DNA of 64,000 bases from [Mycobacterium] zoologicum. Lineage in GTDB: Bacteria > Actinomycetota > Actinomycetes > Mycobacteriales > Mycobacteriaceae. The position numbers and the translations under genes were made by a program. Location of the stretch: the NCBI RefSeq assembly GCF_020172665.1, contig NZ_CP083985.1:2656123-2720122 (forward strand), in the 5' to 3' direction. The notes below the pieces were generated by a model, which saw nothing but the letters and a program-made list of their open reading frames with translations, searched no databases and had not been told where the DNA came from. This document shows, piece by piece, positions 21,156-40,573 of this stretch; the stretch's first letter is position 1; each line of letters opens with the position of its first letter.

Positions 21156-21182
21156 AAAAGCCACCCCTTGGGTGGCTTTTTT
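21156..21182 (+). terminator. Intrinsic terminator after mpt64
   Basis: AAAAGCCACCC (21156-21166) and GGGTGGCTTTT (21170-21180) form a perfect 11-bp stem with a 3-base loop, followed by further Ts. The A and T tails make it usable in both directions. It would also end transcripts of a tRNA-Val gene located here before the insertion. Confidence 0.9.
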
Positions 21183-21229
21183 GTGGTCCCGGCTGGGATC
21201 GAACCAGCGACCTTCCGCGTGTGAGGCGG
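21181..21229. repeat. attachment-site repeat, left (tRNA-Val 3' fragment)
   Basis: This stretch is identical over 49 bases to 40059-40107. It carries the acceptor 3' strand, T arm, variable region and part of the anticodon arm of tRNA-Val(CAC) on the minus strand, but the 5' half is missing. It is therefore a displaced tRNA end created by integration. The terminator of mpt64 abuts it. Confidence 0.9.
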
Positions 21230-21321
21230 GTGGAATGACCGCTGACCTGCAGTTTATCTACTTCTATGCGTCGTATGCGGCGCACTGAACGCGTCTGACG
21301 CAGGCCACTCGCCCGGCGACC

Positions 21322-21339
21322 GGACACAAACCGGACACG
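21322..21339 (+). promoter_or_regulatory. candidate arm-type integrase site, left end
   Basis: GGACACAAACCGGACACG lies about 90 bases inside the left core. It recurs with one difference at 39994-40011 inside the right end, in the same orientation. Lambda-type integrases bind such repeats on both arms of attP. Assignment as integrase sites is inferred from position and repetition. Confidence 0.55.
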
Positions 21340-21446
21340 GTGACCGAGCTCCCGACTGGGGATGCCTCCGCCCGGCTGGTCACCCCGATCCGTGCCGCCT
21401 GCGCCAGGGAACAGGCTCCCAAAGCCCGGCACCCCAACCCTACAAA

Positions 21447-21629
21447 CACACCCGCCACGGAGCGACTCACCCACCTCACGCAACAACGCCCCGAACGGCC
21501 AGTCGGAACACGTCCGGAGCTGCGGAGCGGCGTAGGCCGTGTTCCGACTGGGACCAACCAACTTGCCATACCTGCCAAAGTGCCCAGAGAGACCGACCGG
21601 GGGCGACGCCGGGACCCACATCATGACCG
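21447..21629 (-). repeat. structured ~185-nt repeat, copy 1 (minus orientation)
   Basis: Read on the minus strand this is about 80% identical by eye to 37810-37993 on the plus strand. At its centre CCAGTCGGAACA and TGTTCCGACTGG (21499-21510 and 21540-21551) form a perfect 12-bp stem around 29 bases. Two base pairs of that stem differ from the other copy in a compensated way, so structure seems selected. Small frames through it are not conserved between copies. It lies in the 614-base stretch 21138-21751, which holds no gene that I can support. Confidence 0.6.
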
Positions 21630-21751
21630 GGCCCGAAGAAGTCCGGCAGGACGGACGAATCCCATCCGCGACAAAAGGGCCACGGTGCAGGAGCGCCGAA
21701 AGCCCCCAAGCCGCCGGGTGCCGAGTCGCCGTCGCCTTGACGCGTCGCAGA

Positions 21752-22906
21752 TCACCGGCTCGACCGGACTATTCCCCAGCTGCCGTCGCTCCGCTGCGCC
21801 AGGCCGGCTACCTCGAGCATGGCCAGCGGCCCGAACACTTGTGCCGGGGCCAACCCGGAGGCGACGGCGATCTGGTCGACGGTGGCGACGCCGCGGCCCG
21901 GCAGTGCGTCGTAGACCTGACGTTCGGCGTCGCTGAGGCCGTCCAGCGGGGTGGCCGGCCGCGGCGGCTCGGGCGCCAGTTCCCCGGCCCGGCCCGCCAA
22001 CTCGATCACCTCCTCGGCCCGGGTGACCAGTTCGGCACCGGCGCGCAGCAGCTTGTGGCAGCCCGCCGAGGCCGCACTGGTGACCGGACCGGGCACCGCG
22101 GCCACCAGCCGGCCCAGCAGCCACGCCCACGCGGCGGTGTTGGCCGTGCCGCTGCGCAGCCCCGCCTCCACCACCACGGTTGCACCAGACAATGCCGCCA
22201 CCAGCCGATTGCGGGTCAAAAACCGGTAGCCGAGCGGGCGGAAGCCCGGCGGGTACTCGGTGACCAGCAACCCCTGCTCACCGATACGGTGCAGCAGCGC
22301 GGAATGGCCGACCGGAGAGCAGATGTCGATTCCGCCGGCCAGCACCGCTACCGTCGTGCCGTCGACGGCGAGCGCGCCACGGTGAGCCGCACCCTCGATT
22401 CCGTAGGAGCCGCCAGCGACCACCGCCACGTCGCGTTCGGCCAGCCCGGCAGCCAGGTCGGCGGCCACCAGCTCGCCGTAGCTGGTGGCGGCCCGCGTCC
22501 CGATGACGGCCGCGGCGCGCTGCGCGGTGTCGGCGAGGCGCGCCGGGCCCTGCGCCCACAGCGCCAGGGGCGGGAGGCAGTACCGCTTCCTGCCCGCTGC
22601 ACCGGCTGCGGCGCCGTCGAATGCTGCGAACGCCAGCAGCGGCCACTCGTCGTCGTCGGGGGTGATCAGCCGGCAACCGCGGCGGGCCAGCAGCTCCAGA
22701 TCATCAGTGCTCCGGTCGATCTCCCGTCTGGCCGCGGTGTGTTTGGCCAGCTCCGGGTTGACCGCACCTCGCCGGATGCGTTCGGCCGCCTCGATCGGGC
22801 CGACCCGCCCGACCAGCGCGGCCAGGTCCGGGCGCGGCGGTTCGGCCACCCGGGACAGGTAAGCCCAGGCCCGCAGCGTGGTGTCGGCTGGGTCAGTGGC
22901 ACTCAT
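21752..22906 (-). CDS. dprA: DprA, DNA-processing protein A
   Basis: DprA binds single-stranded DNA taken up by a cell and loads RecA onto it. The 384-residue protein is complete. It has an N-terminal helical region, a Rossmann-type core with VIGTRAATSYGE, GGSYGIEGAAHRGAL and YPPGFRPLGYRFLTRNR, and a C-terminal winged helix (VYDALPGRGVATVDQIA). It overlaps the yifB stop by ATGA, the pairing seen as Rv2896c-Rv2897c. Unusually, it lies inside the integrative element, and the normal downstream neighbours (viuB, xerC) are absent. Confidence 0.93.
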   Translation of the reverse strand: MSATDPADTTLRAWAYLSRVAEPPRPDLAALVGRVGPIEAAERIRRGAVNPELAKHTAARREIDRSTDDLELLARRGCRLITPDDDEWPLLAFAAFDGAAAGAAGRKRYCLPPLALWAQGPARLADTAQRAAAVIGTRAATSYGELVAADLAAGLAERDVAVVAGGSYGIEGAAHRGALAVDGTTVAVLAGGIDICSPVGHSALLHRIGEQGLLVTEYPPGFRPLGYRFLTRNRLVAALSGATVVVEAGLRSGTANTAAWAWLLGRLVAAVPGPVTSAASAGCHKLLRAGAELVTRAEEVIELAGRAGELAPEPPRPATPLDGLSDAERQVYDALPGRGVATVDQIAVASGLAPAQVFGPLAMLEVAGLAQRSDGSWGIVRSSR

Positions 22907-24414
22907 CGGGCTGGCCCCGGCGGGCGGAAACTGAGCGCCGCGGAGACCTCGTCGAGGCTGGGCGAGTTCCGGCCCGCCAGATCGGCCAGGGTCCAGGCCA
23001 CCCGCAGGGTGCGGTCGACCCCGCGGATCGAGAGCAGGCCGCGGTCCAGGGCGGTGCGCAGCGGCGCCATCGCGGTGGCGCTCGGCTCGAACGTGCGGCG
23101 CAGCAACGCCCCGCTGACTTCGGCGTTGGTCGCAAAGCCGTGCGGCCCCCAGCGGTGTGCGGCCGCAGCGCGCGCCTGTGCCACCCGGGCCCGCACCACC
23201 GCCGTCGACTCCCCATCGGCAGCGGAGAACGCGCCCGCCCGCACCGGATGCATCTCGACCCGCAGGTCTACCCGGTCCAGCAGCGGCCCGGACAATCGGC
23301 CGAGGTAGCGCCGCTTCTCGATCGGCCTACACGTGCAGTCCCGCGGGTCGGCCGGCGCGCACGGGCACGGATTGGCGGCCATCACCAGCTGGAAGCGGGC
23401 CGGATAGCAGGCCACCCCGTCACAGCGGGCCAGCCGGATCTCCCCGTCTTCCAACGGTGTTCGCAGCGCCTCCAGGGCGCTCACCCGGATCTCGGCGCAT
23501 TCGTCGAGGAACAGCACGCCACGGTGCGCGCGGCTCACCGCGCCGGGCTTTGCCATTCCGGAGCCGCCCCCGACCAACGCGGCGACGCTGGAGCTGTGGT
23601 GCGGCGCGATGAACGGCGGGCGGGTGATCAGCGGTGCGCAACCAGACAGCAGGCCCGCTACCGAGTGAATCGCGGTGACCTCCAACGACTCGGTCTCGGT
23701 CAGCGGCGGCAGCAGGCCGGGAAGACGCTGGGCGAGCATGGTTTTGCCGATTCCGGGTGGGCCGGTCAGCATCAGATGATGCGATCCGGCCGCGGCCACC
23801 TCGACGGCGAACCGCGCCTGGGCCTGACCGACCACCTCCGCCAGCTCCGCGGCGGGGGCGGCAGGCGGGGGCGCCGTGGTAATGCGGTCGGCCAGCCGAG
23901 CCGACCCGTCCAGCCAGCCGTGCAGCTGACTCAGCGTCGCCACCCCAAAGACATCGATGCCGTCCACCAGGCTGGCTTCGGCGAGGTTTTCCAACGGCAC
24001 CACGGCGGCGGGCCAGCCGTCGTTCTTGGCGGCCAGCACCGCAGGCAGCACCCCGTGGACCGGGCGCACCCGTCCATCCAGCGCCAGCTCGCCGAGCAAC
24101 ACCGTCTTGTCCAGCTGCGACCACGGCGTGCCGCGGCCCGCCGAGAGCACCGCGGCCGCAAGGGCCAGGTCATACACCGAGCCGGTCTTGGGCAGCGTGG
24201 CCGGGGACAGCGCCAACGTAAGGCATGAGGTCGGCCAGCGCTGCCCACTATTGGTGATCGCCGCCCGAACCCGGTCCCGCGACTCCTGCAGTGCGGCATC
24301 GGGCAGCCCCACCAGATGCACCTTGGGCAAGCCCGCGGTGATGTCGGCCTCGATCTCCACGATCAGACCGTCCAGGCCGCGCACCGCGACCGAAAACGCC
24401 CGTCCGAGTGCCAT
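22903..24414 (-). CDS. YifB/ComM-type AAA+ ATPase
   Basis: Magnesium-chelatase-like ATPase; the Haemophilus and Vibrio homologue ComM is a branch-migration helicase in natural transformation. The start MALGRAFSVAVRGLDG at ATG 24414 gives 503 residues, the length I recall for Rv2897c. The N-terminal LonC-like domain is followed by Walker A GPPGIGKTML, Walker B VLFLDECAE and the cysteine cluster NPCPCAPADPRDCTC. The longer frame to 24639 is unsupported. It is intact and coupled to dprA, inside the element. Confidence 0.93.
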   Translation of the reverse strand: MALGRAFSVAVRGLDGLIVEIEADITAGLPKVHLVGLPDAALQESRDRVRAAITNSGQRWPTSCLTLALSPATLPKTGSVYDLALAAAVLSAGRGTPWSQLDKTVLLGELALDGRVRPVHGVLPAVLAAKNDGWPAAVVPLENLAEASLVDGIDVFGVATLSQLHGWLDGSARLADRITTAPPPAAPAAELAEVVGQAQARFAVEVAAAGSHHLMLTGPPGIGKTMLAQRLPGLLPPLTETESLEVTAIHSVAGLLSGCAPLITRPPFIAPHHSSSVAALVGGGSGMAKPGAVSRAHRGVLFLDECAEIRVSALEALRTPLEDGEIRLARCDGVACYPARFQLVMAANPCPCAPADPRDCTCRPIEKRRYLGRLSGPLLDRVDLRVEMHPVRAGAFSAADGESTAVVRARVAQARAAAAHRWGPHGFATNAEVSGALLRRTFEPSATAMAPLRTALDRGLLSIRGVDRTLRVAWTLADLAGRNSPSLDEVSAALSFRPPGPAR

Positions 24415-24565
24415 CACTTCACCCCCCGCGGCTGAGTGCTCTCCGGGATGAACGCCACGGTGCGCGTGTCCGGCGCATGGGTCATGGTTGTCATGCCCGT
24501 CAGGTTGGGCCATGGCACCGACGACGTCGAGGCGGACCGCATCGAAAACAGCTCCCGGCAGCCAG

Positions 24566-26371
24566 TTATCCCCAGATCGACCTTTCTGCACAGCTGCGGT
24601 TTCGGGTGAGCGCGACGACGGTGGCGTGCCGCGGTTCACCGGCCGGGTCGACGGTCACCGGGGCCTGCCACTGGGCGACGGTGTCGAGGTCACCGTCGAG
24701 GTATAGGCAGCGGCAGGCGGTACGGCGGATGGGGCCGCTCGCGGTGGTGGGCAGCCGCATAGGCGCCACCAAGAGGATCGAATCCGCTTGGATGCCAGGA
24801 GATTCATGCAGAACCGACTGGATCAGTGGCACCAGTGTGGCCAGTTCTGTCACGCCGATGTCGCGGCTGACCTCGTTCACCACTACCAACTTCTCGTATT
24901 CGTCGGCGAACACCGCGCCACGCCCCGATAGCAACACCGCATGGCAATCCTGCACCGTGGCTTCAATCTCTTTCGGGTAGTAGTGCACCCCACCGAGCAC
25001 CACCAGGTCTTTGCAGCGTCCGGTGACGAATAACTCCCCGCTGCGGATAAATCCTCGATCGCCGGTGCGCAAAAACGGGCCTCCCCCGCCGTCTGCGAGG
25101 AACGCCTCGAAGATCTGATCGCTCTGAGCCGGTGCATCCCAATAGCTTTGGGCGACCCCAGGTCCGCCCACCCAGATTTCGCCCACTTCATCGGGACCGC
25201 ACTCCAGTCGGGTGTCGGGGTCGACGATCGCCACCTGCTGACGCGGTCGCCCACACCCCACCACAGCGACCGCCCCGGGGTCATCCGCGTCGGCGTCCAG
25301 AGCCCACCCCGAGGCTAGGCCAGCGCGATCGATGTGACACACCACCGGTGGGCCGGATTGCGAACCGCCGGAGACCAGCAGGGTGGCCTCCGCCCGCCCG
25401 TACACCGACATGAACGCCTCACGGCGAAAGCCTGCCGGGGCGAATGCGTCGGCGAAGGCCCACATCGTGGCCGCCCGCACCGGCTCGGCCCCAGTAATCA
25501 CCGCGGTGGACAGGCTCAACAGATCGAGCGCCGCACGCTCGGTTGGGGTGCTGCGCTGCACACACAACCGGTAGGCCAGATCCGGAGCCATGGTCAGCGT
25601 GGCCCGCCACCGGCAGATCGCCTCCAACCAGCGCATCGGCCGCTGGATCAACGCCGACGGCGACATCAACACGGTGGTGGCGCCCAGGTAGATCGGCGCC
25701 AGCACCCCGCCGATCAGGCCCCTCTCGTGGTGCGTCGGCAGCCACGACACCGCCACATCACGGTGATCACCGAGCCCCGCCGCACCGATGGCCTCCAGGT
25801 TGGCCATGACGTTCTCGTGGGTCACCACCACGCCCCTCGGGCAGCGAGGTGACCCCGCCGAATACACAATCAGTGCAATGCTGTCGGCGTCGACGGCCGG
25901 CGCCGCCCATTGCTGCGCATCGCCTTCCTCGGTGCCACACCACACCAGAGGTTCATCGTTAACCCGTCCGGCCAAGGTGTCGACCGCCGAGCGGATGCTT
26001 TCCGGCAGCTGCGGGGACCCCACCGCAAACCCCGCCCCGACATCGGCGATTACCGCCGCCAACCGCGGCCCTACCCGCTGCGGCACCGGCACCGCAACCC
26101 CACCGGCATACCAGCACCCGAAAATCCCAGCGATCCCCTCCAAACCCGGACCGCACAACACCAATACCCGCGAACCCGCAGCACCCAACCCCTGCAGCCG
26201 GGCTCCGATCGCCCGCGCCCGAAGATCCAACTCCCGATACGTCAACGCGCTACCGTCGCGGCCATCCCCGTAATAGGAGAAGCTGCACGCGGTCTTCTCC
26301 CCGAACCGCGCTGCCTGCTGACGCAGCAACTCCACCACGGTGTCCGCAGTAGGTGCAATATCCACGCCCAT
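24566..26371 (-). CDS. Fatty-acyl-AMP-ligase-like protein lacking the A10 lysine
   Basis: The 601-residue protein has the full two-domain layout of FadD32-type fatty-acyl-AMP ligases, which activate fatty acids for transfer to polyketide synthases. The A3 loop is degenerate (YSAGSPRCPRGV), and in the C-terminal subdomain the usual Ser-Gly-Lys reads SGP (Pro547, PTTASGPIRR). Loss of this lysine normally cripples adenylation. No polyketide synthase or carrier protein is nearby. It lies 18 bases downstream of a truncated paralogue and may be a decaying duplicate or have a non-ligase role. Confidence 0.78.
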   Translation of the reverse strand: MGVDIAPTADTVVELLRQQAARFGEKTACSFSYYGDGRDGSALTYRELDLRARAIGARLQGLGAAGSRVLVLCGPGLEGIAGIFGCWYAGGVAVPVPQRVGPRLAAVIADVGAGFAVGSPQLPESIRSAVDTLAGRVNDEPLVWCGTEEGDAQQWAAPAVDADSIALIVYSAGSPRCPRGVVVTHENVMANLEAIGAAGLGDHRDVAVSWLPTHHERGLIGGVLAPIYLGATTVLMSPSALIQRPMRWLEAICRWRATLTMAPDLAYRLCVQRSTPTERAALDLLSLSTAVITGAEPVRAATMWAFADAFAPAGFRREAFMSVYGRAEATLLVSGGSQSGPPVVCHIDRAGLASGWALDADADDPGAVAVVGCGRPRQQVAIVDPDTRLECGPDEVGEIWVGGPGVAQSYWDAPAQSDQIFEAFLADGGGGPFLRTGDRGFIRSGELFVTGRCKDLVVLGGVHYYPKEIEATVQDCHAVLLSGRGAVFADEYEKLVVVNEVSRDIGVTELATLVPLIQSVLHESPGIQADSILLVAPMRLPTTASGPIRRTACRCLYLDGDLDTVAQWQAPVTVDPAGEPRHATVVALTRNRSCAERSIWG

Positions 26372-26389
26372 CCCCGAACCCCGCAGCTC

Positions 26390-27937
26390 CTACGCGCTAC
26401 GACCGCAGTCGCCACCACCGGATGGCGGCGTCGCGGTAAATACCGCACCACGCCCGGCAACCAACAGCGGATGACAGGCCGCCACGGTGGCCTCGAGGTC
26501 ATGCGGGTGGTAGTGCGCCCCGCCTAGGACCACCAGGTCGTGGCAGCGCCCGATGACGAACAATTGCCCGCCGCGGACGAATCCGCGATCTCCGCTGCGC
26601 AGAAACGGGCCGTTGCGGGCGTGGGCGGGCATCGCCCCGAACATCTGCTCGGTGGGCGCGGGCGCATCCCAATAGCCGCGGGCCACACTGGGCCCGGCGA
26701 TCCAGATCTCGCCGACCTCATTGGGTTTGCAGGGCCGCCAGGACTGTGGGTCGACGATCACCACCTGTGCGCGGGGCCGCCCACAGCCCACCACCTCGAC
26801 AGCACCGGGATCATCGGGGGCGGCGTCGACAACACGGTCCGACTGCAGCGCAACCTGATCGAGGTGGCGTATCACCGGTAGCGGGGATGCCGCACCGCCA
26901 GCCACTAGCCCGCTGGCCTCGGGCAACCCGTAGACCGGCGTGAACGCTTCACCACGAAACCCCGACGGTGCGAACGCGTCGCTGAAGCTGCGCATCGTGG
27001 CCGCCCGCAGCGGCTGCCCGGTATTGGTCGCCGTGGATAGGCTGGACAGATCCAGGCCCGCCCGCTCCGCAGGGGTGGAGCGCGCCACACACGACCGGTA
27101 CGCGACATCCGGGGCGACGGTCATCGTGGCTCGCCACCGGGAGATCGCTTCCAGCCAGCACAGCGGACGCGCCATGACCGCCGACGGCGACATCAACACC
27201 GTCGAACACCCCCGATAGATCCCGCTCAACACGGCGCCGATCAGGCCCATCCCGTGATGGGTGGGCAGCCACGACACCGCGACGTCACGATGATCGCCCG
27301 GCCAGGCTTCGCCGAGGGCCACCAGACTCGCCATCAGATTGCCGTGCATCAGCACCACACCCCGCGCCGCACGGGTCGGGGCCGACGGGTACTGGACCAT
27401 CGCCACGGTGTGCGCGTCGATCACCGGTACCTGCCAGCTGCCGGCATCCCCGTTTTCGGTGTCGCACCACACCAACGGCTCCCCTACCCGCCCGGCCAGG
27501 GTGTCCACCGCCGCGCGGATGCTGGCCGGCGTCACCGTGGAAGCCAGCGCGAAGCCCGCCCCGACATCGGCGATCACCGACGCCAACCCCGGCCCAACCC
27601 GTTCAGGGATCGGCACCGCAATCCCACCGGCATACCAACACCCGAACATGCCGGCGACACTGTCTAATCCGGGTCGGCACAGCACCAACACCGGCGAACC
27701 CTCAAGCACACCCGACCGCTGCAACCCCGCCCCGATCGCCCGCGCCCGATAATCCAGCTCCCGGAACGTCACCTGGGCGCCGTATCGGCCATCACCGTGA
27801 TACGAGTAGCTGAACGCGGCTTTCTCCCCACACCACGCCGCCTGCTGACCCAACAACTCCACCACCGTGTCCGCGGTCGGCGTCACCTCCCCGAGGAGGC
27901 GGGGTGCGAGACGGTCCTGGACGGGCTCACACGACAC
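26390..27937 (-). pseudogene. Truncated fatty-acyl-AMP-ligase-like gene
   Basis: A close paralogue of the downstream FAAL-like gene, but the alignment ends abruptly at GRGAVF. There an unrelated 14-residue tail (TATPPSGGGDCGRSA) leads to TAG. About 130 residues of the C-terminal subdomain, including the A10 region, are missing. The A3 loop is also eroded (YPSAPTRAARGV). GTG 27937 is the most plausible start, overlapping the sulfotransferase end by 11 bases; no good ribosome binding site is seen. The remaining 515 residues are open, so a truncated protein could still be made. Confidence 0.7.
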
Positions 27938-28742
27938 GTAAACCGTCCGGGATATTGCGGGGGTCGCGCCAAAATGCGTCGTGGACAAAGCGATGGAACA
28001 GATCCGGCGGCAGCAACGTGTCCCGCGGCTGGGCTTTGACCGTGCCACCGACGGTGTGCAGGCCGGGGGTGCCGGCGCGGTCGTCGAATTCGGTGACGTC
28101 GTAGTCGATGTGGTCGAAGTCGTGCTCAAAGGGCGGTTCGCCGAGGAACGCGTAGATGGCGTGCATGGTCTTGGCCGGGTCGGTGGTCAGGGTTTCGTAC
28201 TGCACCAGCAGCAGGCGGTCGCGTTGGGCGCCGTAGCAGGCCTGTTTGAGCGCATCGAAGGGAGCGCCGACCATCCCGTTCTGCGCCGCTACACCGTTGG
28301 CGCGGGTGTACACGGTGCCGCCGGCGGTGTAGTTGAAGATCGACGACGGGCTAAAGACATTGCGCTGGATGATGCGTTCGATGCTGTCGATCACCCACGG
28401 CAGATCGCGCACGCAGGCAATGACTTTCGCGGCGGGGAACAGCTGCACGATTGCCGGCATCCACGCGCACCAGGCCCGGTTGGTGTCAAAAATCACCTCG
28501 GCGTCGCAGTCGGCGTAGAAGTTGTCGAACAACCCGTGCAGGATGCGCTGGCGCTTGGCGTCGTCGATGAACACCGAAAACTCGTTGCGGGCACTCATCT
28601 CGCCCAGCAGCGCCCCGAACAGCCCGGCCAGCGGCCCCGACATCCCCGCCTCACAGCGCGGGTTTTGCCGCAGCAACGCCGCCAACAACGTCGAGCCCGA
28701 CCGCGGCAAACCCGAGATGAAGTGCATCGACGTCACTGACAC
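27927..28742 (-). CDS. Sulfotransferase family protein (copy 2)
   Basis: Paralogue of the gene at 1115-1924 with near-identical stretches: the PAPS loop GLPRSGSTLLAALLRQNP, SARNEFSVFIDDAKR and the C-terminal GLRVV. It heads the gene group sulfotransferase, truncated FAAL, FAAL on the minus strand. That suggests an origin in a sulfated-lipid locus. GTG 28742 is the frame start; a second GTG at 28736 has better spacing from GAGGAG. Sulfuryl acceptor unknown. Confidence 0.86.
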   Translation of the reverse strand: MSVTSMHFISGLPRSGSTLLAALLRQNPRCEAGMSGPLAGLFGALLGEMSARNEFSVFIDDAKRQRILHGLFDNFYADCDAEVIFDTNRAWCAWMPAIVQLFPAAKVIACVRDLPWVIDSIERIIQRNVFSPSSIFNYTAGGTVYTRANGVAAQNGMVGAPFDALKQACYGAQRDRLLLVQYETLTTDPAKTMHAIYAFLGEPPFEHDFDHIDYDVTEFDDRAGTPGLHTVGGTVKAQPRDTLLPPDLFHRFVHDAFWRDPRNIPDGLRVV

Positions 28743-28873
28743 GCTCCTCGCGATGAGGGCCGGCGGCCGCCGAGCCCGAAAGACCCGACGACCGCCGGTT
28801 TTGGGTGACTCCGTGGGCAGATTGGAGATTGTTCACATCGACCACCCGCCGTGCCGGAGCCACGTCTATGGAT

Positions 28874-28906
28874 GGGGTTGCTCGGCGGGTGCGGCCAAGC
28901 AACCCC
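28874..28906 (-). terminator. Hairpin after the PGRS gene, candidate terminator
   Basis: GGGGTTGCT (28874-28882) pairs perfectly with AGCAACCCC (28898-28906), six bases beyond the stop of the PGRS gene on the minus strand. It is GC-rich and has no T tract, as for many mycobacterial candidate terminators. Function is inferred from position. Confidence 0.5.
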
Positions 28907-28911
28907 CCGTG

Positions 28912-31662: not shown

Positions 31663-31731
31663 GTGCGAACACCTTTCGTGTGAACAGCCCCGATGGGGCG
31701 GTAATGCTTGGGGTGGAATGGATTTGGCCGA

Positions 31732-32909
31732 TCAGAATGCGGCAAGAAGGTCTTGCACCCACGTGGACAGGTCCGCGGCCACGGCGGCGGCGCTCGTGCC
31801 GCTATCGAGGATGTCGGTAGGGATGACAGGGAGCGTGACGTCAGCCAACGGCGATCCCGAGCCGTCCCAGCCGAGCAGCGAAGCGATGGTCTGCACCCAG
31901 CCCTCCCAGGCCCCGATTGGGCCGACCGCCTGACTGATTGTTTCGAGTTGTTGAATCGTCGGGACACCGGTGAGATCGATGCCAAGGCCATTGAAGATCG
32001 AGCCGCCGACGTCGGGGGTTACGCCGTCAGTGACCGTGCCGACTTGGCCAGGTGTGAGCAATCCACCGAATGCGAAGTCGAGATTCTCGATGTTCATGCC
32101 CGCCGGCAAGACATCCGCTTGCTCGATCGCCGGGATCAGACTGTCGAGGTTGAGATCCGCACCGTTGAAGAAAGCGCCAACCATGTTGGCCAGTGTCTCG
32201 TTGAAGCCGTCGCCGGCAGTGATGCTGTTGCTCAGCGCGACCCACGGGGCGATGTAGGGGCCCAACTCGCCGATGATGATGCCGCTGGCCGGCGAGGCCA
32301 TGAAATCCAGAATCTGCGTGACCGTCGCGGCGTCGCTGGCCGGCAAGAATGACGGAATCTCGCCGAAGACAGCCGCGTGGCCGGTGGGGTCCCCGTTCAA
32401 GCCGCTGAATATGCTGCCGTACTTATCGAGCGTGTGTGCCGTCACGATACTCGTGGTTGCGGTGGTCGCGTTCTGCAGCGTATAGCCCGTCAACACTGCC
32501 GCCAGGTTCTGCTGCATCTCCTGGCTCACGCTGGTGACGGTGCTGCTCGTCGGGTCGTTGAAGAAGTCCTGCAGGAAGCCGGCCCAGTTGGCGAGCAGCT
32601 GCTGGAGCCCCACAGCAGGAGCTTCGAAGAAGCTGTTGAGCAGCGTCGTCGAGTTGGCGGACGCGGTGTTGAAAACGTCGATCCAAGGGGTGAGATCGGC
32701 CTCGCCGGAGGTGAGCGCGACGTCACGGAACGTGCCCATGTCGGGCAACGGGGCCGCCACCGGGGTAAATATGACAAGGCCGGCACCCAGGAGAACGGCA
32801 CCGGCGGTCGCGAAGGGGCGAAGCTTACTTAGGCAGGGAGACGCCCCCCCCCCCCCGCCTGGGCGCGCACAGTTGCGCGAGGAGCGGTGATGTCCTGCTG
32901 ACGAGCCAT
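31732..32909 (-). pseudogene. GjpA-type outer-membrane porin gene, start out of frame at a poly-G tract
   Basis: From the signal segment LRPFATAGAVLLGAGLVIF onward, about 365 residues resemble proteins annotated as GjpA-like porins, with WIDVFNTASANSTTLLNSFF, MASPASGIIIGELGPYIAPW and FNETLANMVGAFFNGADLNL. The best start, ATG 32909 (MARQQDITAPR, preceded by AAGGGA), is in another frame: with 13 Gs (32844-32856) it stops after 26 residues. Fourteen or eleven Gs would join the two frames. The gene may be phase-variable, mutated or affected by a sequencing error. Confidence 0.75.
32844..32856. repeat. 13-nt homopolymer (C on plus strand, G in the gene)
   Basis: An uninterrupted run of 13 C on the plus strand within the first 25 codons of the porin gene. 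A change of one base moves the reading frame between early termination and the full porin. Such tracts are prone to slipped-strand mutation and to sequencing error. Confidence 0.85.
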
Positions 32910-33488
32910 GGATGTTGTCCCTTCGCTGCGGTGGGTGAATGCACTGGACGTCGTGGCTGAGCCGAACGGGTCCGGGGCCGTGGTGGGGCCGGCGGTGGTG
33001 CCGGGTGCCAGGTGCACGATGCCTCCTTGGACGTGTGTCGGCTCGAAACTCAAGGTGTTCACGAGTAAAGCTGAGCACAACCAACTTTTCGATAGCGTTC
33101 TCTTAATTCGCTGCTGGACATCGTCGCACCGCAACTGGGCAACGAGATCGTCATCACAGTTCAAGAGGCAGATATAAGCCACATGAGCAAACAAATATGA
33201 CCGTCGTGGTAGTTCAAACAGAAACAGCTGTCTCGGCACTTCTGAAACACGTTCCGCGCACTACGGGCAGTTTGCCAACTTGTGGCTAACCTCGTTGATC
33301 TCAAGCGATTACAAATGTCTTCCGGTTAGCTATCCGGGCAACAGGTTGCACGAGGTCTTGTTGCTGCGACACTGGTTGACCAGGAACAGCGAGCGTTGGC
33401 ATGCCGTGGCGGCGCGGTCTATTTCGGAACCCGCCACGCCCACGGACGCCGGCCAAGATCTGACGGACACCGCCCCTAGGATGAAGCC
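32910..33488. other. 579-base non-coding stretch between the porin and ietA
   Basis: No frame here has recognisable homology or good codon use. Base composition is visibly lower in GC than the flanking mycobacterial genes. It must hold the divergent promoters of the porin gene (minus) and of ietA (plus). No convincing operator or terminator was found. The composition shift suggests a junction between cargo segments of different origin. Confidence 0.5.
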
Positions 33489-34463
33489 GTGGCCGGGCGA
33501 CAGTTAAAGGAAATCTTCCGCGCGTTCCACGCGCGGGATGAGTTGGCGTTCCGTCGCGCGGCCACTGAGATCATCGAGGAAGAGCAAGCGAAGCATCACA
33601 ACGCGCTGGCCCGTGATCTCCAGAAGCTCCTCGTCGCTGGTGGTGGCGCAGTCGACTCTGGCATGACCGTCGTCGTCCCGGCGCCACCGAAGGATCGTGA
33701 AGGCGAGTGGGACCTCGGAGAGATCCGCGAACCGGAGCGTTTACTCGAGGATCTCGTTCTTCGTCAGGCCGTCTCAACGGCCCTAGAGAACATTGCCGAA
33801 GAGGTGCGTCAATGGCCCTCACTGGACGCCGCTGGTCTCCCTCGGCGACAGCGACTCCTCCTCCAAGGACCGCCCGGCTGTGGCAAGACCACCGCGGCCG
33901 AGGGCGTCGCTGCAGAGCTAGGTCGACCGCTTCTTGTAGTTCGGCTGGATGCAGTTGTTTCCTCGTACCTCGGAGAGACCGCAAGCAACCTTCGTCGAAT
34001 TCTGGACTACACAAATCAGGCACCGTTCGTCGTCCTGTTCGATGAGTTCGACGCGCTTGGCCGGTCACGAGACGATGCTTCCGAACACGGTGAGATGAAG
34101 CGCGTCGTCACCGCCTTCCTTCAGATGACGGACCGCTACCGAGGGCCGAGCCTGCTGCTCGCGGCAACCAATCATCCATCGCTTCTTGATGAGGCACTCT
34201 GGCGCCGCTTCGACGAAGTACTGACATTCGAACTACCCACCGTTCATCAGATTCGCCAGCTCCTCCGCCTCCGTCTCAAGAGTGTGTCTCACTCGGGATT
34301 GGAAATCGACCAATATGCGAGTGCTCTCAAAGGACTTCCGCACGCGGCGGCCGAGAAACTCGTGATTGACGCGCGCCGCAACGCCATCCTGCGCAACTCA
34401 GGGATCGTCGAGAACGAGGACATGAGAAAGGCGCTGCCTGGCATTACGTCGCGGCCCTGGTAA
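33489..34463 (+). CDS. ietA: IetA-like AAA+ ATPase
   Basis: First gene of an ATPase/subtilase pair. The 324 residues hold a helical N-terminus, Walker A GPPGCGKT (residues 127-134), Walker B VVLFDEFD (181-188), sensor 1 Asn228 (ATNHP) and arginine fingers at 239-240 (WRRFDE), followed by a small lid domain. The pair matches IetAS, first described as a plasmid incompatibility/stability locus in Agrobacterium and later among anti-phage systems. The GTG start is four bases downstream of a dense stop region. The ietS gene follows after four bases. Confidence 0.82.
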   Translation: MAGRQLKEIFRAFHARDELAFRRAATEIIEEEQAKHHNALARDLQKLLVAGGGAVDSGMTVVVPAPPKDREGEWDLGEIREPERLLEDLVLRQAVSTALENIAEEVRQWPSLDAAGLPRRQRLLLQGPPGCGKTTAAEGVAAELGRPLLVVRLDAVVSSYLGETASNLRRILDYTNQAPFVVLFDEFDALGRSRDDASEHGEMKRVVTAFLQMTDRYRGPSLLLAATNHPSLLDEALWRRFDEVLTFELPTVHQIRQLLRLRLKSVSHSGLEIDQYASALKGLPHAAAEKLVIDARRNAILRNSGIVENEDMRKALPGITSRPW

Positions 34464-34467
34464 CACA

Positions 34468-36807
34468 ATGCCTGAACATCTACTGCTTCCGAATCCTCGA
34501 CAACTTCAGTCACGACGATCCAGCCCTGCAGGCGGAGCCTCCCCAACTCGCCAGCGCGGGGAGCACGGTGGCCATCTTCGTCGACAGCTTGACGCCGCCC
34601 GAACTCCTCGCGAACTCAACGCAGGGGTAGATCCCGACTTCGTATTCAAGATCAAGGCGGCCTCTCGACCCGAAGACTCAGCATTCGAAGGCCGAGGGCT
34701 TCAAGTTCTCGGTGAGACCATCGACTACACGTACTTCGTGTTGTCGAGCGACCAGGGTGCATCGCTGGAAGATGCGATCCAACGCTACGTCCGTACTGGC
34801 GAGCTTCGCAGCTTCTTCAATCAGATCGACGACATCGAGCCATATGGCCCAGCAGATCGAACTGGGCCGGGAATCGATGAGCTGGCACCTGACTTCACGG
34901 GCACGAATGTCGTAGACATCACCATCTGGCCATCGGGAACACACAACGAGGCCGAACGGCGCGCCGGCATCATCCAGGAGATCGTCGCCGAGAACGACGG
35001 CCAAGTGTTGCTCCGATCTGTCTCCGCACGCCGCAGTTACCTCCGCATACAGATCACGGCCGCCGGGCTTTCTGACCTGTTGAACACCAGCGTCGTCGAG
35101 TTGGTCCGCAGGCCACCAGTTCCGTTCCTCGACTTCCGTGACTGGCGGAACGTCGACATCTCGTCTGTTTCCCGAGGCGAGCAAGCCAGTGAGGTCATCG
35201 GCGTTCTCGATGACTCACCGGAATCGTCACATCCACTGCTGACGGGTCTGGTGCTGTCTGATGAGTCCCTCGCGCCACCGGCCTACCAATGGCAACAGCG
35301 CGGAACCCACGGAACCGAGGTGATCGGCCGCCTCCTCCTGCCGAACCTTCACGAAGAACTCCGTGATGCGTTGCCTATCACCGCCGCTGGACATGTTCGG
35401 GTCGTTCGGATCCTTGAGCCCGATCCGTCCCGACCCGACCATCCTCCACGGTTCGCCGCCTATGCCGCGCCACACGACTTGGTGGAGAAGGCGATCCGCC
35501 ACCTGCATGGCGCCTACGGCGTTCGGGTGTTCAACCTCTCGATCGGCTATTCGGAGCCGTTCAACGACCTCCATCTTGGACCGCTGACGGAGACCATCGA
35601 TGATCTCGCGCGAGAGCTCAACATCGTCGTCGTCCTGCCGACGGGCAACGTTCCGGCGGATATCACCGCACGCATGCCGAGCGGTCACCACATCATCAAC
35701 GACAAGCCCGAGTACTTCTTCGCACCTGAGCACCGTTTGGCTGAGCCCGGCCCCGCGGCCCTCGCTGTTACGGTCGGCGCGCTGGCACTTAGCGGAGCGC
35801 CCGCCGAGCTGCCGCGCCGCTTCGGATGGCAGGCGGCGGCCGATGCCGGCGAGGCTTCTCCTTTCAGCCGGAGCGGCCCAGGGCTCGGGACGAACTCCCG
35901 CCGCGCCAACAAGCCTGACGTAACCCACTTCGGTGGAAATGTGGTCGTGAACGACACAGGACACATGGTGCCGAACGATCCTGGCGCCTCGTTGGTCAGC
36001 ACTTCGACGCGTGGTGCCGGCGGCCAGATTTTCGCAGCCGTCAACGGCACAAGTTATGCGGTACCCGCCGTTGCACGAGTCGCGGCCGACATCGCGTACG
36101 CATACCCCGACGCATCCGCCAACCTGATCCGCGCCCTCCTAGCGACAGGGGCTTCACAGACCCCGCCAGCGGCCGCCGTCACCGAACTCCACCGGCGCAA
36201 CCGCATCTACGGGCTCGGCCTTCCCGATGGGGAGAGGGCGGTCTCAAGCGATGACCATCGGGTCACGATGACGTACGACGGCACTATGCCCGTGGACACC
36301 GTCCAGATTCACCCGATGCCCGTACCGGAGGAATTCCGCCAGGGCAGCCGGCGCGACCGCATCATCAGCGTCGCGCTCGCGTTCGACCCGCCAGTACGAC
36401 GCCAACGCCGCGAATACCTCGCTGGCACAATGAAGTTCGAAGTCTACCGCGACATTAGCGCTGACGAGCTCGCTGAGATACTCGAGCGGCAGGACCCCGA
36501 CGATCCGTCCGACCTGATTAGCGACCGGCGCAAGCTGAATCTTCAACCCGGAGTGAACACCTTCACCCACAGCACGCTTCAACTCCGTTCATGGGTCGGA
36601 CGCAACTCGTTCGTCAACGACGACAAAACGTTCCTGATCGCCGTCACTCACAAAGCGCAAACCTGGGCACGCAACGATCCCGCGTACGAGAGCCAAACAT
36701 ACGCCCTGGCTGCAACATTGGAGGACCGCGATCTCGCGACAGCACACCTCCATCAATCACTACGACAACAACTACGCATCCCGAACCGCGTTCGCCTCCG
36801 CAGTTAG
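34468..36807 (+). CDS. ietS: IetS-like subtilisin-family serine protease
   Basis: The 779-residue protein has about 240 N-terminal residues of unknown fold, then an S8 peptidase domain with the triad Asp248 or 249 (VIGVLDDSP), His281 (GTHGTEV) and Ser529 (NGTSYAVP), and the oxyanion Asn394 (PTGNV). A C-terminal beta-rich region of about 190 residues ends it. There is no signal peptide, so it acts in the cytosol, unlike ESX mycosins. In IetAS the protease is thought to be the toxic effector controlled by the ATPase; that role is inferred here. Confidence 0.85.
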   Translation: MPEHLLLPNPRQLQSRRSSPAGGASPTRQRGEHGGHLRRQLDAARTPRELNAGVDPDFVFKIKAASRPEDSAFEGRGLQVLGETIDYTYFVLSSDQGASLEDAIQRYVRTGELRSFFNQIDDIEPYGPADRTGPGIDELAPDFTGTNVVDITIWPSGTHNEAERRAGIIQEIVAENDGQVLLRSVSARRSYLRIQITAAGLSDLLNTSVVELVRRPPVPFLDFRDWRNVDISSVSRGEQASEVIGVLDDSPESSHPLLTGLVLSDESLAPPAYQWQQRGTHGTEVIGRLLLPNLHEELRDALPITAAGHVRVVRILEPDPSRPDHPPRFAAYAAPHDLVEKAIRHLHGAYGVRVFNLSIGYSEPFNDLHLGPLTETIDDLARELNIVVVLPTGNVPADITARMPSGHHIINDKPEYFFAPEHRLAEPGPAALAVTVGALALSGAPAELPRRFGWQAAADAGEASPFSRSGPGLGTNSRRANKPDVTHFGGNVVVNDTGHMVPNDPGASLVSTSTRGAGGQIFAAVNGTSYAVPAVARVAADIAYAYPDASANLIRALLATGASQTPPAAAVTELHRRNRIYGLGLPDGERAVSSDDHRVTMTYDGTMPVDTVQIHPMPVPEEFRQGSRRDRIISVALAFDPPVRRQRREYLAGTMKFEVYRDISADELAEILERQDPDDPSDLISDRRKLNLQPGVNTFTHSTLQLRSWVGRNSFVNDDKTFLIAVTHKAQTWARNDPAYESQTYALAATLEDRDLATAHLHQSLRQQLRIPNRVRLRS

Positions 36808-36957
36808 CATCGATCGGCGATGCCAGAGCAACGCTATCTGTCGTATGGTTCCATCGCCGGGAGCCTTGCGCTGTGCCCGACTGTGGGCTACTGCGTCGGC
36901 GTCCCCCAGGCGGCCCCGGCATGAGGGCGAGTGACATAGGTCGGTCAGCCCGCTAAG

Positions 36958-36969
36958 CTAGTCGTCTAG
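36958..36969. promoter_or_regulatory. CTAG-N4-CTAG box upstream of gntR
   Basis: CTAGTCGTCTAG overlaps the promoter region of the GntR gene. A second CTAG-N4-CTAG is at 38179-38190, upstream of xis-int. The tetranucleotide CTAG is rare in such DNA, so two boxes of this form beside these genes suggest a shared operator, probably for the GntR protein itself. Confidence 0.5.
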
Positions 36970-36992
36970 ATATGACGGCGGGAGGCGGGTCA

Positions 36993-37772
36993 GTGCTCGA
37001 ACTTGGTCAGGTCGATCGGACCGTGGACAGCCCGCCCTATCGGCAGATCGCCAGCATGCTGCGCGAGGCCATCAGCTCGGCCCGGCTAGCTCCCGGAGAA
37101 CGGCTGCCGTCGGAGACTGAGTTGATCGAGCATTTCGGTGTGGCACGGATGACGGTCCGGCAAGCGGTCCAAGAGCTTCGTTCCGAAGGGCTGGTGATCG
37201 CCGAGCGCGGTCGCGGCGTGTTCGTCCGCCCGGCGCCTCAGATCCAGCGCGTGGCATCCGATCGATTCGCGCGGAAACACCGAACCGGCGGCGGCGCTGC
37301 GTCCGACATCGGAGTGGAGGAATCTGGGTACTCGCCGCAAGTCGACCGGATCGCGGTGACTCGGAAGAAAACGAACCAGCTTGTGGCCGAACGTCTTCAG
37401 GTGTCGGCCGCCGATAAGGTCGTCGCGTGGTCAAGGCGCTACCTCGCCGATGGGCAACCCATTGAGACGGCCGTCTCCTACCTACCCTTGACGATTGCCG
37501 AAGATGCGCAGATCTCCGAGGCCGATACCGGACCGGGTGGCATCTATGCCCGCTTGGAGGAAACCGGTCACGCCCTCGCACGTTTCACCGAGGAAGTCAC
37601 CGCTCGGATGCCCACCCCCGAAGAACGCCGCGAGTTGCAGCTGGAGTCAGGGGTTCCCGTTCTGAGCGTGCTGCGGACCGCCTACGACACCAACGACGCG
37701 GCAGTTGAAGTCTGCGCCAGCGTCAAAGTCGCGTCCGCCTATGTGCTCGAATACGAGTTCCCAGCGCGCTGA
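36993..37772 (+). CDS. GntR-family regulator, HutC/UTRA type
   Basis: An N-terminal winged helix (ERLPSETELIEHFGVARMTV) is followed by a UTRA effector-binding domain. I prefer GTG 36993, with GGGAGG seven bases upstream (259 residues), to ATG 36972, which lacks a binding site and touches the operator. In actinomycete integrative elements such as pSAM2 a GntR protein (KorSA) represses excision and transfer; a similar role over xis-int is inferred from position and the shared CTAG boxes. A small-molecule ligand is possible but unknown. Confidence 0.85.
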   Translation: MLELGQVDRTVDSPPYRQIASMLREAISSARLAPGERLPSETELIEHFGVARMTVRQAVQELRSEGLVIAERGRGVFVRPAPQIQRVASDRFARKHRTGGGAASDIGVEESGYSPQVDRIAVTRKKTNQLVAERLQVSAADKVVAWSRRYLADGQPIETAVSYLPLTIAEDAQISEADTGPGGIYARLEETGHALARFTEEVTARMPTPEERRELQLESGVPVLSVLRTAYDTNDAAVEVCASVKVASAYVLEYEFPAR

Positions 37773-37809
37773 ACCACACCATCTCAGGACGCCTCGACTA
37801 CAGAGGCAC

Positions 37810-37993
37810 CGGTCATGATGTGGGTCCCTGCGTCGCTCTCGTCGGTCTCTCAAGGCGCTTTGGCTGGTGTGGCACGTCTTTTGGTCCCATCCGAAACACG
37901 GCCTGCGCCGCTTCGCGGCTCCGGCCCTGTTCCGGATGGCCGTTCAGGTGGGGTTGCGTGAGGCGGGTGGGTCGCTTCCTGGAGTGGATGTGG
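37810..37993 (+). repeat. structured ~185-nt repeat, copy 2 (plus orientation)
   Basis: Counterpart of 21447-21629 in opposite orientation. Both copies begin CGGTCATGATGTGGGTCCC and share a central stem. Here CCATCCGAAACA (37887-37898) pairs with TGTTCCGGATGG (37928-37939), 11 of 12 pairs, with the same 29-base interior. The stem differs from copy 1 at two pairs that change together. The surrounding stretch 37773-38389 holds no supported gene; besides this repeat and one CTAG box I see nothing assignable. Confidence 0.6.
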
Positions 37994-38178
37994 TTCTGGC
38001 TGCGGCCCTTGATGGTTGCCGGGCATTGAGGGAAATGATGATGCCCAACCCCACTCAGAAGTGGCGGGTTCATCCCCGATGTTGGGCTGGACCGCACTGC
38101 TCTGCTTCGACTGGCCCCCTTGCGTTCTCGCGTCGTTGCATCTCGGACAAACAATCTCCGGCAATGCGTTGAACACAT

Positions 38179-38190
38179 CTAGATAACTAG
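38179..38190. promoter_or_regulatory. CTAG-N4-CTAG box upstream of xis-int
   Basis: CTAGATAACTAG, with a further CTATCTAG at 38202-38209, lies 200 bases before the xis start. It has the same form as the box in front of gntR. It is a candidate operator for GntR control of excision. A short leader or an unrecognised small gene could lie between it and xis. Confidence 0.45.
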
Positions 38191-38389
38191 GTAGGATGGA
38201 ACTATCTAGAGCAGTTCCCGAGAGGCTTGACCAATGCTTGTACCGAAGGTGCCCCACCAGGAGGTTTTTGCACACCGTGGGTGTGTCCACGACGACCACT
38301 GGCCACGTGGGTTAATTCGTTCTGTCACAACGCGATACGGAATTCTTTGCCGTACGCAGATAGCTTTCGGCCAGAGCTGAGGAATCGCC

Positions 38390-38614
38390 ATGACAATCCT
38401 CGATTCCAACACCGCGGCCACCGTATTTCCGGAGCTTCTGACGGCCGAGCAGGTCGCGGACTTGCTTGGCGTGTCCACGGCCACCGTCAGCCGCTGGGGC
38501 GCGATGCGGGACCAGGGTCAGCAAGTGGGACCACCGTGCTACGCACTTTCTGATCGCGTAAGACGTTGGGATGCAGCCGAAGTCCGCACATGGCTACGCC
38601 GGGTGCGACGCTGA
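38390..38614 (+). CDS. Excisionase-like small MerR-type DNA-binding protein
   Basis: The 74-residue protein is a single winged-helix domain (LTAEQVADLLGVSTATVSRW, then a WDAAEVRTWL end) of the AlpA/Xis kind found next to integrases in actinobacterial elements. Its stop overlaps the integrase start (TGATG at 38612-38616), so the two are coupled. It probably binds near the attachment sites and directs integrase towards excision. Confidence 0.82.
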   Translation: MTILDSNTAATVFPELLTAEQVADLLGVSTATVSRWGAMRDQGQQVGPPCYALSDRVRRWDAAEVRTWLRRVRR

Positions 38615-39771
38615 TGGCCGGCTCACTACCCCCCGGAATCCGAAAGCGGACCAACGCCGCCGGCCAAGCCCGCTATCAAGTGCGCTACCTGGTGCGCGAC
38701 TCCAACTCACCGTCCGGGTGGGTGGAAACCTCATCGACATTCGCCACGCTGCGAGAAGCTCGGGCATTCAAGGCCGAGCGAGATAGTGAAGTGGCCCTCG
38801 GAACCAGACGTTTCGATCCGCGTCTCGGCCGGGTCCGCCTCTCGGCGATCTGGACGCAATACAGCGCATCCAAACGCCCCGCCGTATCCCCCAAGACATG
38901 GAGCGGTTACACCCAGCACTGGGAGCTGCGCATCGGCCCGCGCTTCGGCCATGTGCCCGTCGATGAGATCAGCCGCAGGGATATCCAGGTCTTCGTCGAC
39001 ACCCTGACTGTCGGCCCCTGGGCCAAGATGTCCACGGTGCGGCTGCTGCGGTCGATACTCGACATGGCGCGCGAGGAGGGCCGGATTCACAGCAACCCGG
39101 CACAGGGCGTATCAGCGGGACGGTTACCGGTACGGGAACGCCACCGCTACCTCACCACCGCCGAAGTTGCGACCCTGGCCGCGGCATGCGGTGACCAAGG
39201 CGATGTCGTCACGGTCCTGGCCTACACCGGACTGCGGTGGTCTGAGCTGGTGGGCTTGCGGGTGGGCGACATCGACTTGGCGGCACGCAGGCTCTACGTG
39301 CGCCAAGCCGCACCCGAGGTCGAAGGGCACATCATCGTCGGCCCACCGAAAACCCGGGCGGCCGTGCGGACCATCCCGCTCCCCCAGGTCGTCGTCGAAC
39401 TGCTCAAGGCGCGCATCGCCGGCCGTGAGCCCGCCGAGCAAGCCATCACCTCGCCGAACGGCGGCTTCCTGCGATCCAACAACTGGCGCCGCCACACCCA
39501 CTGGACCCGCGCTCTGCAAACGACACACCTCGCGCCGTTGACAATCCACGAGCTACGCCACACCTATGCGAGCTTGGCCCGGGCCTCGGGCGCCGATCTG
39601 CGCTACGTCCAGAAGACCATGGGCCATTCGACACCCACCGTCACCGCCAACATCTACAGCGATCTCTACTCGGACGAACTCGACCAGGTGGCAGTCAACC
39701 TCGACCGGCTCCACGCGTCGGACGGGACCAAGGCGGACCGACAGGAACCTGGCATGCCGAATCAGCCGTAG
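38614..39771 (+). CDS. int: Tyrosine-family site-specific integrase
   Basis: The 385-residue protein has an arm-binding N-terminus, a SAM-like core-binding domain (about residues 75-160) and the catalytic domain with Arg208 (TGLRWSEL), Lys246, His312 and Arg315 (IHELRHTYAS), His338 (MGHSTP) and Tyr348 (NIYSDL). All catalytic residues are present. ATG 38614 overlaps the xis stop; the longer frame from 38566 lies within xis. The intact tRNA-Val target begins 290 bases downstream, the usual arrangement for a tRNA-targeting integrase. Confidence 0.93.
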   Translation: MAGSLPPGIRKRTNAAGQARYQVRYLVRDSNSPSGWVETSSTFATLREARAFKAERDSEVALGTRRFDPRLGRVRLSAIWTQYSASKRPAVSPKTWSGYTQHWELRIGPRFGHVPVDEISRRDIQVFVDTLTVGPWAKMSTVRLLRSILDMAREEGRIHSNPAQGVSAGRLPVRERHRYLTTAEVATLAAACGDQGDVVTVLAYTGLRWSELVGLRVGDIDLAARRLYVRQAAPEVEGHIIVGPPKTRAAVRTIPLPQVVVELLKARIAGREPAEQAITSPNGGFLRSNNWRRHTHWTRALQTTHLAPLTIHELRHTYASLARASGADLRYVQKTMGHSTPTVTANIYSDLYSDELDQVAVNLDRLHASDGTKADRQEPGMPNQP

Positions 39772-39993
39772 AGTTTCGTCGTCGCCGTCTGTGCACCTCA
39801 ACACCGACCGGCTACGGCCTGCGGTCCAGCAGTAGCGTGAGGGCCCCGCGCCCGGCGGAGAATATCGACGTTCAGCTTCCAGCGGTTCGCGAGGTGACCT
39901 GTCGCCGTCCCACGATATCCGCGATAGTAGAGCGTGTGCCCACTCATCCGATAAGCCGACAACGGGCCCGGCGCCAGTCAGAAGCAGGCGAAC

Positions 39994-40011
39994 GGACAGA
40001 AACCGGACACG
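39994..40011 (+). promoter_or_regulatory. candidate arm-type integrase site, right end
   Basis: GGACAGAAACCGGACACG is about 50 bases inside the right core and differs at one base from 21322-21339. The rest of the 290-base stretch between int and the tRNA holds no gene that I can see. Confidence 0.55.
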
Positions 40012-40058
40012 CCGCATCAGCGAAAGTGTGACATCACCGCGTCCGTGCAGATCAAACC

Positions 40059-40107
40059 TTGTGGTCCCGGCTGGGATCGAACCAGCGACCTTCCGCGTGT
40101 GAGGCGG
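40059..40107. repeat. attachment-site repeat, right (within tRNA-Val)
   Basis: The 49 bases are identical to 21181-21229. Here they form the 3' 46 bases of an intact tRNA-Val(CAC), restored by element-borne sequence. The repeat ends inside the 3' edge of the anticodon region on the tRNA, so strand exchange took place between the anticodon loop and the 3' end. Confidence 0.9.
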
Positions 40108-40133
40108 ACGCTCTCCCCCTGAGCTACGAGACC
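40062..40133 (-). tRNA. tRNA-Val (CAC)
   Basis: The 72-base cloverleaf is complete. The acceptor pairs GGTCTCG with CGGGACC, the D arm is GCTC/GAGC, and the anticodon loop CTCACAC sits in the stem TCCGC/GCGGA, giving anticodon CAC. The T arm is GCTGG/CCAGC. CCA is not encoded. It reads GTG codons. It is the integration target of the element. Confidence 0.95.
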
Positions 40134-40484: not shown

Positions 40485-40556
40485 GCGCGGTTAGCTCAGC
40501 GGGAGAGCGCTTCCCTGACACGGAAGAGGTCGCTGGTTCAATCCCAGTACCGCGCA
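40485..40556 (+). tRNA. tRNA-Val (GAC)
   Basis: The cloverleaf has acceptor GCGCGGT/ACCGCGC and anticodon loop CTGACAC in stem CTTCC/GGAAG, giving anticodon GAC. The 3' CCA is encoded (40557-40559), unlike in the other three tRNAs here. A strong terminator follows after 14 bases. Confidence 0.96.
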
Positions 40557-40573
40557 CCAGGTTTCGCATACTG

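Follow-up and report, generated by a model that had tools for sequence, protein, structure and literature searches.

An integrative island at a tRNA-Val(CAC) gene of [Mycobacterium] zoologicum, probably derived from an AICE-like family that usually occupies tRNA-Phe

Among described integrative elements, two kinds lie closest to the island reported here. phiRv2 of M. tuberculosis is a 10.8-kb element with a tyrosine integrase, reported in valU at a locus with a Gly-Cys-Val tRNA transcript (PMC3861185, PMC3986857). AICEs of the pSAM2 type, as described in PMC3218068, combine a tyrosine integrase and excisionase at a tRNA 3' end with FtsK/SpoIIIE and replication genes and a GntR-type regulator, the KorSA-like form of which is frequent but not obligatory. 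According to the same source, the Mycobacterium AICEs of Ghinet et al. 2011 use serine recombinases in all cases but one (Mkan24688), and related AICE integrases of Frankia are reported in different tRNAs. Work on Ms6 reported that altering the att core, with the integrase left unchanged, can redirect integration from one tRNA-Ala gene to another (PMC1762012).

The island is found in a genome assembled as a single contig of 4,425,202 bp, of which we analysed a stretch of 64,000 bp (2,656,123-2,720,122; hereafter the window, to which all coordinates refer unless another replicon or locus is given). It is bounded by an exact 49-bp repeat of the 3' part of a tRNA gene, forming the left (21181-21229) and right (40059-40107) att cores; the start-to-start distance of 18,878 bp gives an element of 18.9 kb, and about 3e-20 exact repeats of this length would be expected by chance in the window on a rough uniform-base estimate. 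The intact target, tRNA-Val(CAC), was called at 40061-40133 on the minus strand, beside the integrase and excisionase genes, and the left core is a partial copy of it. These features had been noted in a first-pass annotation of the window, and all of the coordinates were confirmed when re-checked. In three other genomes of the genus the tRNA-Val(CAC)-Gly-Cys-Val cluster is intact and directly adjoins the left-flank gene. When the two flanks of the element are joined, they align with these genomes over the junction, with identities of 92% over 597 bp in G022, 94.5% over 511 bp in G101 and 87% over 1294 bp in G086. Alignment of the same locus in relatives, proposed earlier as a check, yielded three genomes with an empty attB; together with the conserved ends of the family these support integrase-driven insertion at the tRNA 3' end. 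Like AICEs, the element combines a site-specific recombinase with att repeats at the 3' end of a tRNA gene.

At higher coordinates, tRNA-Val(CAC) is followed by tRNA-Gly, tRNA-Cys and tRNA-Val(GAC) (40485-40559), all on the plus strand. It had been proposed that the element uses the same target as phiRv2, and this part of the earlier reading did not hold: PMC3861185 places phiRv2 in valU of the Gly-Cys-Val operon, which by synteny with the window would be tRNA-Val(GAC) and not the divergent tRNA-Val(CAC). With valU so identified, both ends of the cluster appear to serve as attachment sites, for different elements. Like the island, phiRv2 has a tyrosine integrase and occupies an end of this tRNA cluster (PMC3861185, PMC3986857), but the two differ in size and in the tRNA gene occupied. 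A phiRv2-like identity was considered and rejected, as the element is not inserted in the Val gene of the Gly-Cys-Val operon as described there. A probable mycobacterial insertion hotspot, also claimed in the first-pass annotation, is no more than hinted at for tRNA-Val(CAC): two of the 30 tRNA-cluster loci checked directly (our genome and G069) have an adjoining integrase match. Further occupants of tRNA-Val(CAC) are found in at least three genomes (G013, G044 and G045) and remnants in at least two (G051 and G066), the cluster being matched in 110 genomes and the search covering relatives of the element's integrase. Separately, integrase matches of about 28-32% identity were seen about 8-12 kb past the tRNA-Val(GAC) end in G023, G046, G058, G080 and G100, as a phiRv2-like arrangement would give.

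The recombination genes lie at the right end of the element. The tyrosine integrase gene (int, 38614-39771, plus strand; 385 aa; Pfam Phage_integrase) is preceded by xis (38390-38614, plus strand), the TGA of which overlaps the ATG of int. The xis product scores 25.4 against a cut-off of 27 for Pfam HTH_17, has an excisionase family as its top PHROG match and is kept before int in the relatives. Near-identical 18-bp boxes with one difference start at 21322 and 39994 as noted earlier, and both are contained within a 25-bp match of 92% on the plus strand (21315-21339 and 39987-40011). The left box is kept in all eight aligned left ends of relatives, the right box is marked by the repeat match and by conservation, and the box-to-core distance is constant for both boxes in every aligned end (9 left and 11 right, our own element included). 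The left 178 bp and the right ~150 bp of the element are also conserved with relatives. This conservation across the family ends supports the proposal that the boxes are arm-type sites, and we regard them as likely candidates for that role. The right end is more complex. From left to right it has a first, degenerate arm copy (39731-39804, plus strand) whose end falls where the core edge would be, a 180-bp spacer (39805-39984), a second, well-kept arm copy containing the right box (39985-40058) and the tRNA-Val core. A search of 118 genomes of the genus for the origin of the spacer gave no substantial match, only matches of 22-44 bp in four other genomes.

The integrase groups with mycobacterial integrases of 61-83% identity whose usual site is tRNA-Phe(GAA), and the island, otherwise an orphan, thereby joins a broad family of AICE-like elements in mycobacteria. 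A tyrosine-integrase match of some kind is present in all 118 genus genomes, and relatives of 63-81% identity occur in at least 18 other genomes. Of the 18 loci examined (L012-L029), 15 lie at tRNA-Phe(GAA) and two, in G013 and G044, at tRNA-Val(CAC). The last, in G045, had no tRNA within the stretch first inspected and proved also to lie at tRNA-Val(CAC), its int being interrupted by an inserted element. Another 61 loci came from named genomes (L082-L142, out of 80 returned, the remaining 19 of ≤33% identity being left out), including more distant integrases and some loci that share one genome; 51 are at tRNA-Phe, four at tRNA-Val(CAC), one each at tRNA-Pro and tRNA-Thr, and four are without a target call. 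L028, looked at besides, is a duplicate of L121. Nine viral-contig loci in IMG/VR carry family integrases of 75-81% identity, eight at tRNA-Phe and one without a target call; all plasmid records matching the integrase fall below 60% identity, the best-ranked at 34.9%. Upstream of int, a second tRNA-Phe end copy of about 46-52 bp is found in 9 of 17 relatives' loci, and in the clearest eight of these the element measures about 13-17 kb. Among open-licence PMC papers on mycobacterial tRNA-Phe elements, phiMmar05 (19.6 kb) is reported at tRNA-Phe (PMC3986857). Our genome has an intact tRNA-Phe gene, and no integrase of the family lies within 1.5 kb of it. In L049, L050 and L054, complete integrases are accompanied by partial ones and by additional copies of the tRNA-Phe end, which suggests that elements have accreted in tandem at tRNA-Phe.

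Within this one family of integrases, the tRNA used as target has changed on more than one occasion. The integrase tree comprised 46 integrases (40 at tRNA-Phe and 6 at tRNA-Val), none of them joined from pieces. The first tree omitted 14 of the 61 named-genome loci, namely fragments or distant sequences (L135, L136, L138, L139, L141 and L142), integrases in pieces (L123, L128 and L140), one short sequence (L134) and those with no tRNA found beside int (L113, L119, L126 and L132); later trees besides omitted L130, L131 and L133 and added L215. Four target changes are needed on the tree, three of them forced by well-supported branches. The element's integrase falls in a clade with 100/99 support together with 13 tRNA-Phe members, forming the first branch of these 14 rows, with weak support for the rest. 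Holding the element, M. hubeiense and G045 together was rejected (p-AU 3.9e-44), as was pairing the element with M. hubeiense alone (p-AU 1.7e-5), and grouping M. hubeiense with G045 was allowed (0.062). A single origin for the element and the tRNA-Val members of M. hubeiense and G045 is ruled out by this test. As the bootstrap had not settled, the first branch is weak and the three outer rows (L121, L122 and L127) are at tRNA-Val, the count of four is given with the Phe/Val direction left unfixed.

The att core here is tRNA-Val(CAC) sequence, and the integrase type and both arm boxes are retained. In our own genome the Phe and Val ends are identical at 45 of 55 positions, including GACCTTCCGC and AGGCGGACGCTC. 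A second tRNA-Val copy was sought in L055, L127 and L043 and not found, so that the crossover could not be mapped from mismatched cores. The Ms6 work is similar in that a change of att core with the same integrase shifts the site to another tRNA gene (PMC1762012); the change reported for Ms6 was made in the laboratory and within tRNA-Ala genes, whereas the present family shows a natural Phe/Val difference. The natural Phe and Val versions offer a tractable pair for studying how tyrosine integrases change target.

Within the stretches compared, the only genes common to the element and its relatives are gntR, xis and int, the first encoding a GntR/UTRA-domain regulator (36972-37772, plus strand) that matches over its full length at 69-73% identity in 11 of 17 relatives' loci. 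In 15 of the 17 loci an FtsK-like gene lies between gntR and xis, truncated in one of them by the end of a contig. Ten of the 17 have a Rep homologue, which is partial in some, and in some loci the stretch is too short for Rep to be judged. The FtsK assignment rests on PHROG labels in L041, L042, L045 and L048 and, among three loci tested with Pfam, on a match above the cut-off in L045 and below it in L048, with none in L041; the Rep assignment has one Pfam domain match, in L048. When the FtsK and Rep homologues of the relatives were sought in the element at E 1e-5, none was found. The element's scanned ORFs contain no recognisable virion, replication or transfer gene, and no replication domain of the RepSA, RepAM, RepPP or Prim-Pol type as used to define AICEs; the earlier remark that such genes are lacking is in agreement with both searches. 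The absence of FtsK and Rep is supported as a loss relative to the AICE-like relatives, and movement may accordingly depend on a helper. Since neither FtsK/SpoIIIE nor a replication gene was matched, the element is classified from its gene content as AICE-derived and not as a complete AICE; it shares with the pSAM2 type of PMC3218068 the tyrosine integrase, xis, tRNA 3' end and GntR-type regulator.

Two inverted, hairpin-containing repeats of 82% identity may mark where these genes were lost. The left copy (21446-21643, plus strand; hairpin z -3.96) aligns with the beginning of the rep region of L041, L048 and L054, and the inverted copy (37796-37991, minus strand; z -3.19) stands where relatives have the FtsK gene. 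Lying near where each lost gene would be, the repeats could be footprints of the losses. An interpretation of the inverted repeat as a remnant of rep itself could not be carried further, as its protein matches reached only E 0.004-0.005 over 17-28 residues.

The cargo between the ends includes a candidate defence system. An ietA-like AAA ATPase gene (33489-34463, plus strand) and an ietS-like S8 peptidase gene (34468-36807, plus strand; PF00082) are neighbouring ORFs that match the PADLOC profiles for IetA (4.7e-87) and IetS (1.2e-77), as in the ietAS anti-phage system, but differ from it in falling below the NCBIfam equivalog cut-offs (243 of 510 bits for IetA and 90 of 900 bits for IetS). 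By eye, the translations contain what we take to be the S8-type Asp, His and Ser motifs and the AAA Walker motifs. We consider this a likely anti-phage gene pair. The first-pass annotation mentions neither this pair nor the fact that several cargo genes duplicate chromosomal ones. An IetS-like protein was found at E 1e-20 in only one other of the 118 genus genomes (G061, 32%); the closest elsewhere, as the best of 7997 candidates scored, are at most 87% identical, their named sources being actinobacteria such as Rhodococcus, Nocardioides and Cellulomonas. Restriction-modification genes are found in two relatives, and elements of this kind appear to carry defence genes (ietAS-like here) in addition to captured genes of chromosomal type.

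The latter are arranged in two groups, all on the minus strand. A second dprA (21752-22906; TIGR00732 above cut-off) and a second comM/YifB (22903-24639, the true start probably inside the ORF; TIGR00368 above cut-off) have their other copies at G000:C1:2872865-2873989 and G000:C1:2874004-2875650. comM is present twice in our genome and once in each of 112 other genomes with a match, and the element copy is closer to the single copy in sister genomes (84-89% identity) than to our own chromosomal copy (82%). In the dprA tree, the element copy and seven relatives form a 98/98 clade with our own chromosomal copy outside it; the comM tree did not resolve the donor. A recent duplication of our own chromosomal dprA-comM pair was rejected on the comM identities. 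The second group consists of two fatty-acyl-AMP ligase-like genes (24566-26371 and 26390-28129, both PF00501; the ORF start of the latter overlaps the next gene and its true start is uncertain), a sulfotransferase (27927-28742; PF13469) with paralogues in our genome, a PGRS-repeat protein (28912-31662; PF21526 only, with no PE domain match) and a gjpA-like gene (31732-33084; NF033942 above cut-off). A locus of the same order lies at ~1.40 Mb in our own genome, at 64-84% nucleotide identity. Within stretches of limited reach, the relatives' loci gave no match to ietAS, dprA, comM, the sulfotransferase or gjpA, and five of the 61 named-genome loci have weak matches to the ligases (24-29%).

The ends, the empty site, the family, the absence of FtsK and Rep homologues and the cargo are direct readings of the DNA. 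We consider it probable that, taken as a whole, they describe an AICE-like family island at tRNA-Val(CAC) from which FtsK and Rep have gone and which has acquired ietAS-like defence cargo and captured chromosomal-type genes. On this account, Int would recombine the two cores and Xis would favour excision to a circle, the tRNA gene being restored either way. Lacking FtsK and Rep, the element would neither replicate nor transfer alone; it would either stay where it is or depend on a complete relative acting in trans. The benefit to the carrier would most likely be phage defence by the ietAS-like pair, and the dprA-comM pair and the ligase-sulfotransferase-PGRS-gjpA block would have been captured from other mycobacteria.

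Several other explanations were weighed against this account. tRNA 3' ends can be duplicated, and the other tRNA-Val gene agrees with the repeat at 33 of its 49 positions, but an old tRNA duplication unrelated to int is scarcely credible against the empty site in three relatives and the conserved family ends. A defective prophage or phage satellite would fit the size and tRNA site, candidate mycobacterial PICIs with tyrosine integrases at tRNAs have been described (PMC10654092), and the nine IMG/VR contigs point the same way; we nevertheless hold it to be very improbable, as no virion or terminase match was found among the scanned ORFs (and no virion or packaging gene by the integrase, as in PICI-like elements), none of the 1725 matches among 50,697 phage records reached 60% identity to the integrase (best-ranked 33.7%), and the relatives carry FtsK and Rep. 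An immobile fossil, in which an old insertion lost its transfer and replication genes, suffered damage to its right end and ceased to excise, is a more serious contender though still somewhat unlikely: the missing FtsK and Rep, the duplicated right arm with its degenerate copy and spacer, and the two diverged hairpin repeats agree with it, while the exact cores, the open xis and int and the well-kept boxes on both sides speak against it.

The history of the target also admits of different readings. We suggest only tentatively, and with some doubt, that the family switches tRNA isotype by swapping the att core only, the element keeping a scar of this in the old core-less arm, the 180-bp spacer and the second arm with its tRNA-Val core; given the positions that the Phe and Val ends share, an integrase built for one could act on the other. 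That tRNA-Val was instead the ancestral target, with tRNA-Phe gained later and tRNA-Val kept or regained here, seems unlikely; the three outer tRNA-Val rows favour it, but four changes are still needed on the tree and the more distant integrases (43-49%) with an adjoining tRNA (L130, L131, L133 and L134) are all at tRNA-Phe.

Some minor features were also observed. ARAGORN called a 102-bp tRNA-Trp at 15100-15201, which Rfam does not support and which is probably a false call. On visual inspection, the PGRS-repeat protein starts with what looks like a signal sequence. Our genome has a second iet-like pair, of a different subtype, at ~1.405-1.409 Mb (L073:7242-10750); absent from the IetS search list, it is flanked by a PGRS gene and a sulfotransferase, within a block that has the gene order of the element cargo. 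In its 5' part, gjpA contains 13 consecutive C (G on the coding strand) at 32844-32856; the frame from the ATG at 32909 stops shortly after it and the longer ORF enters from another frame, and the run could be either a phase-variable tract or a sequencing error.
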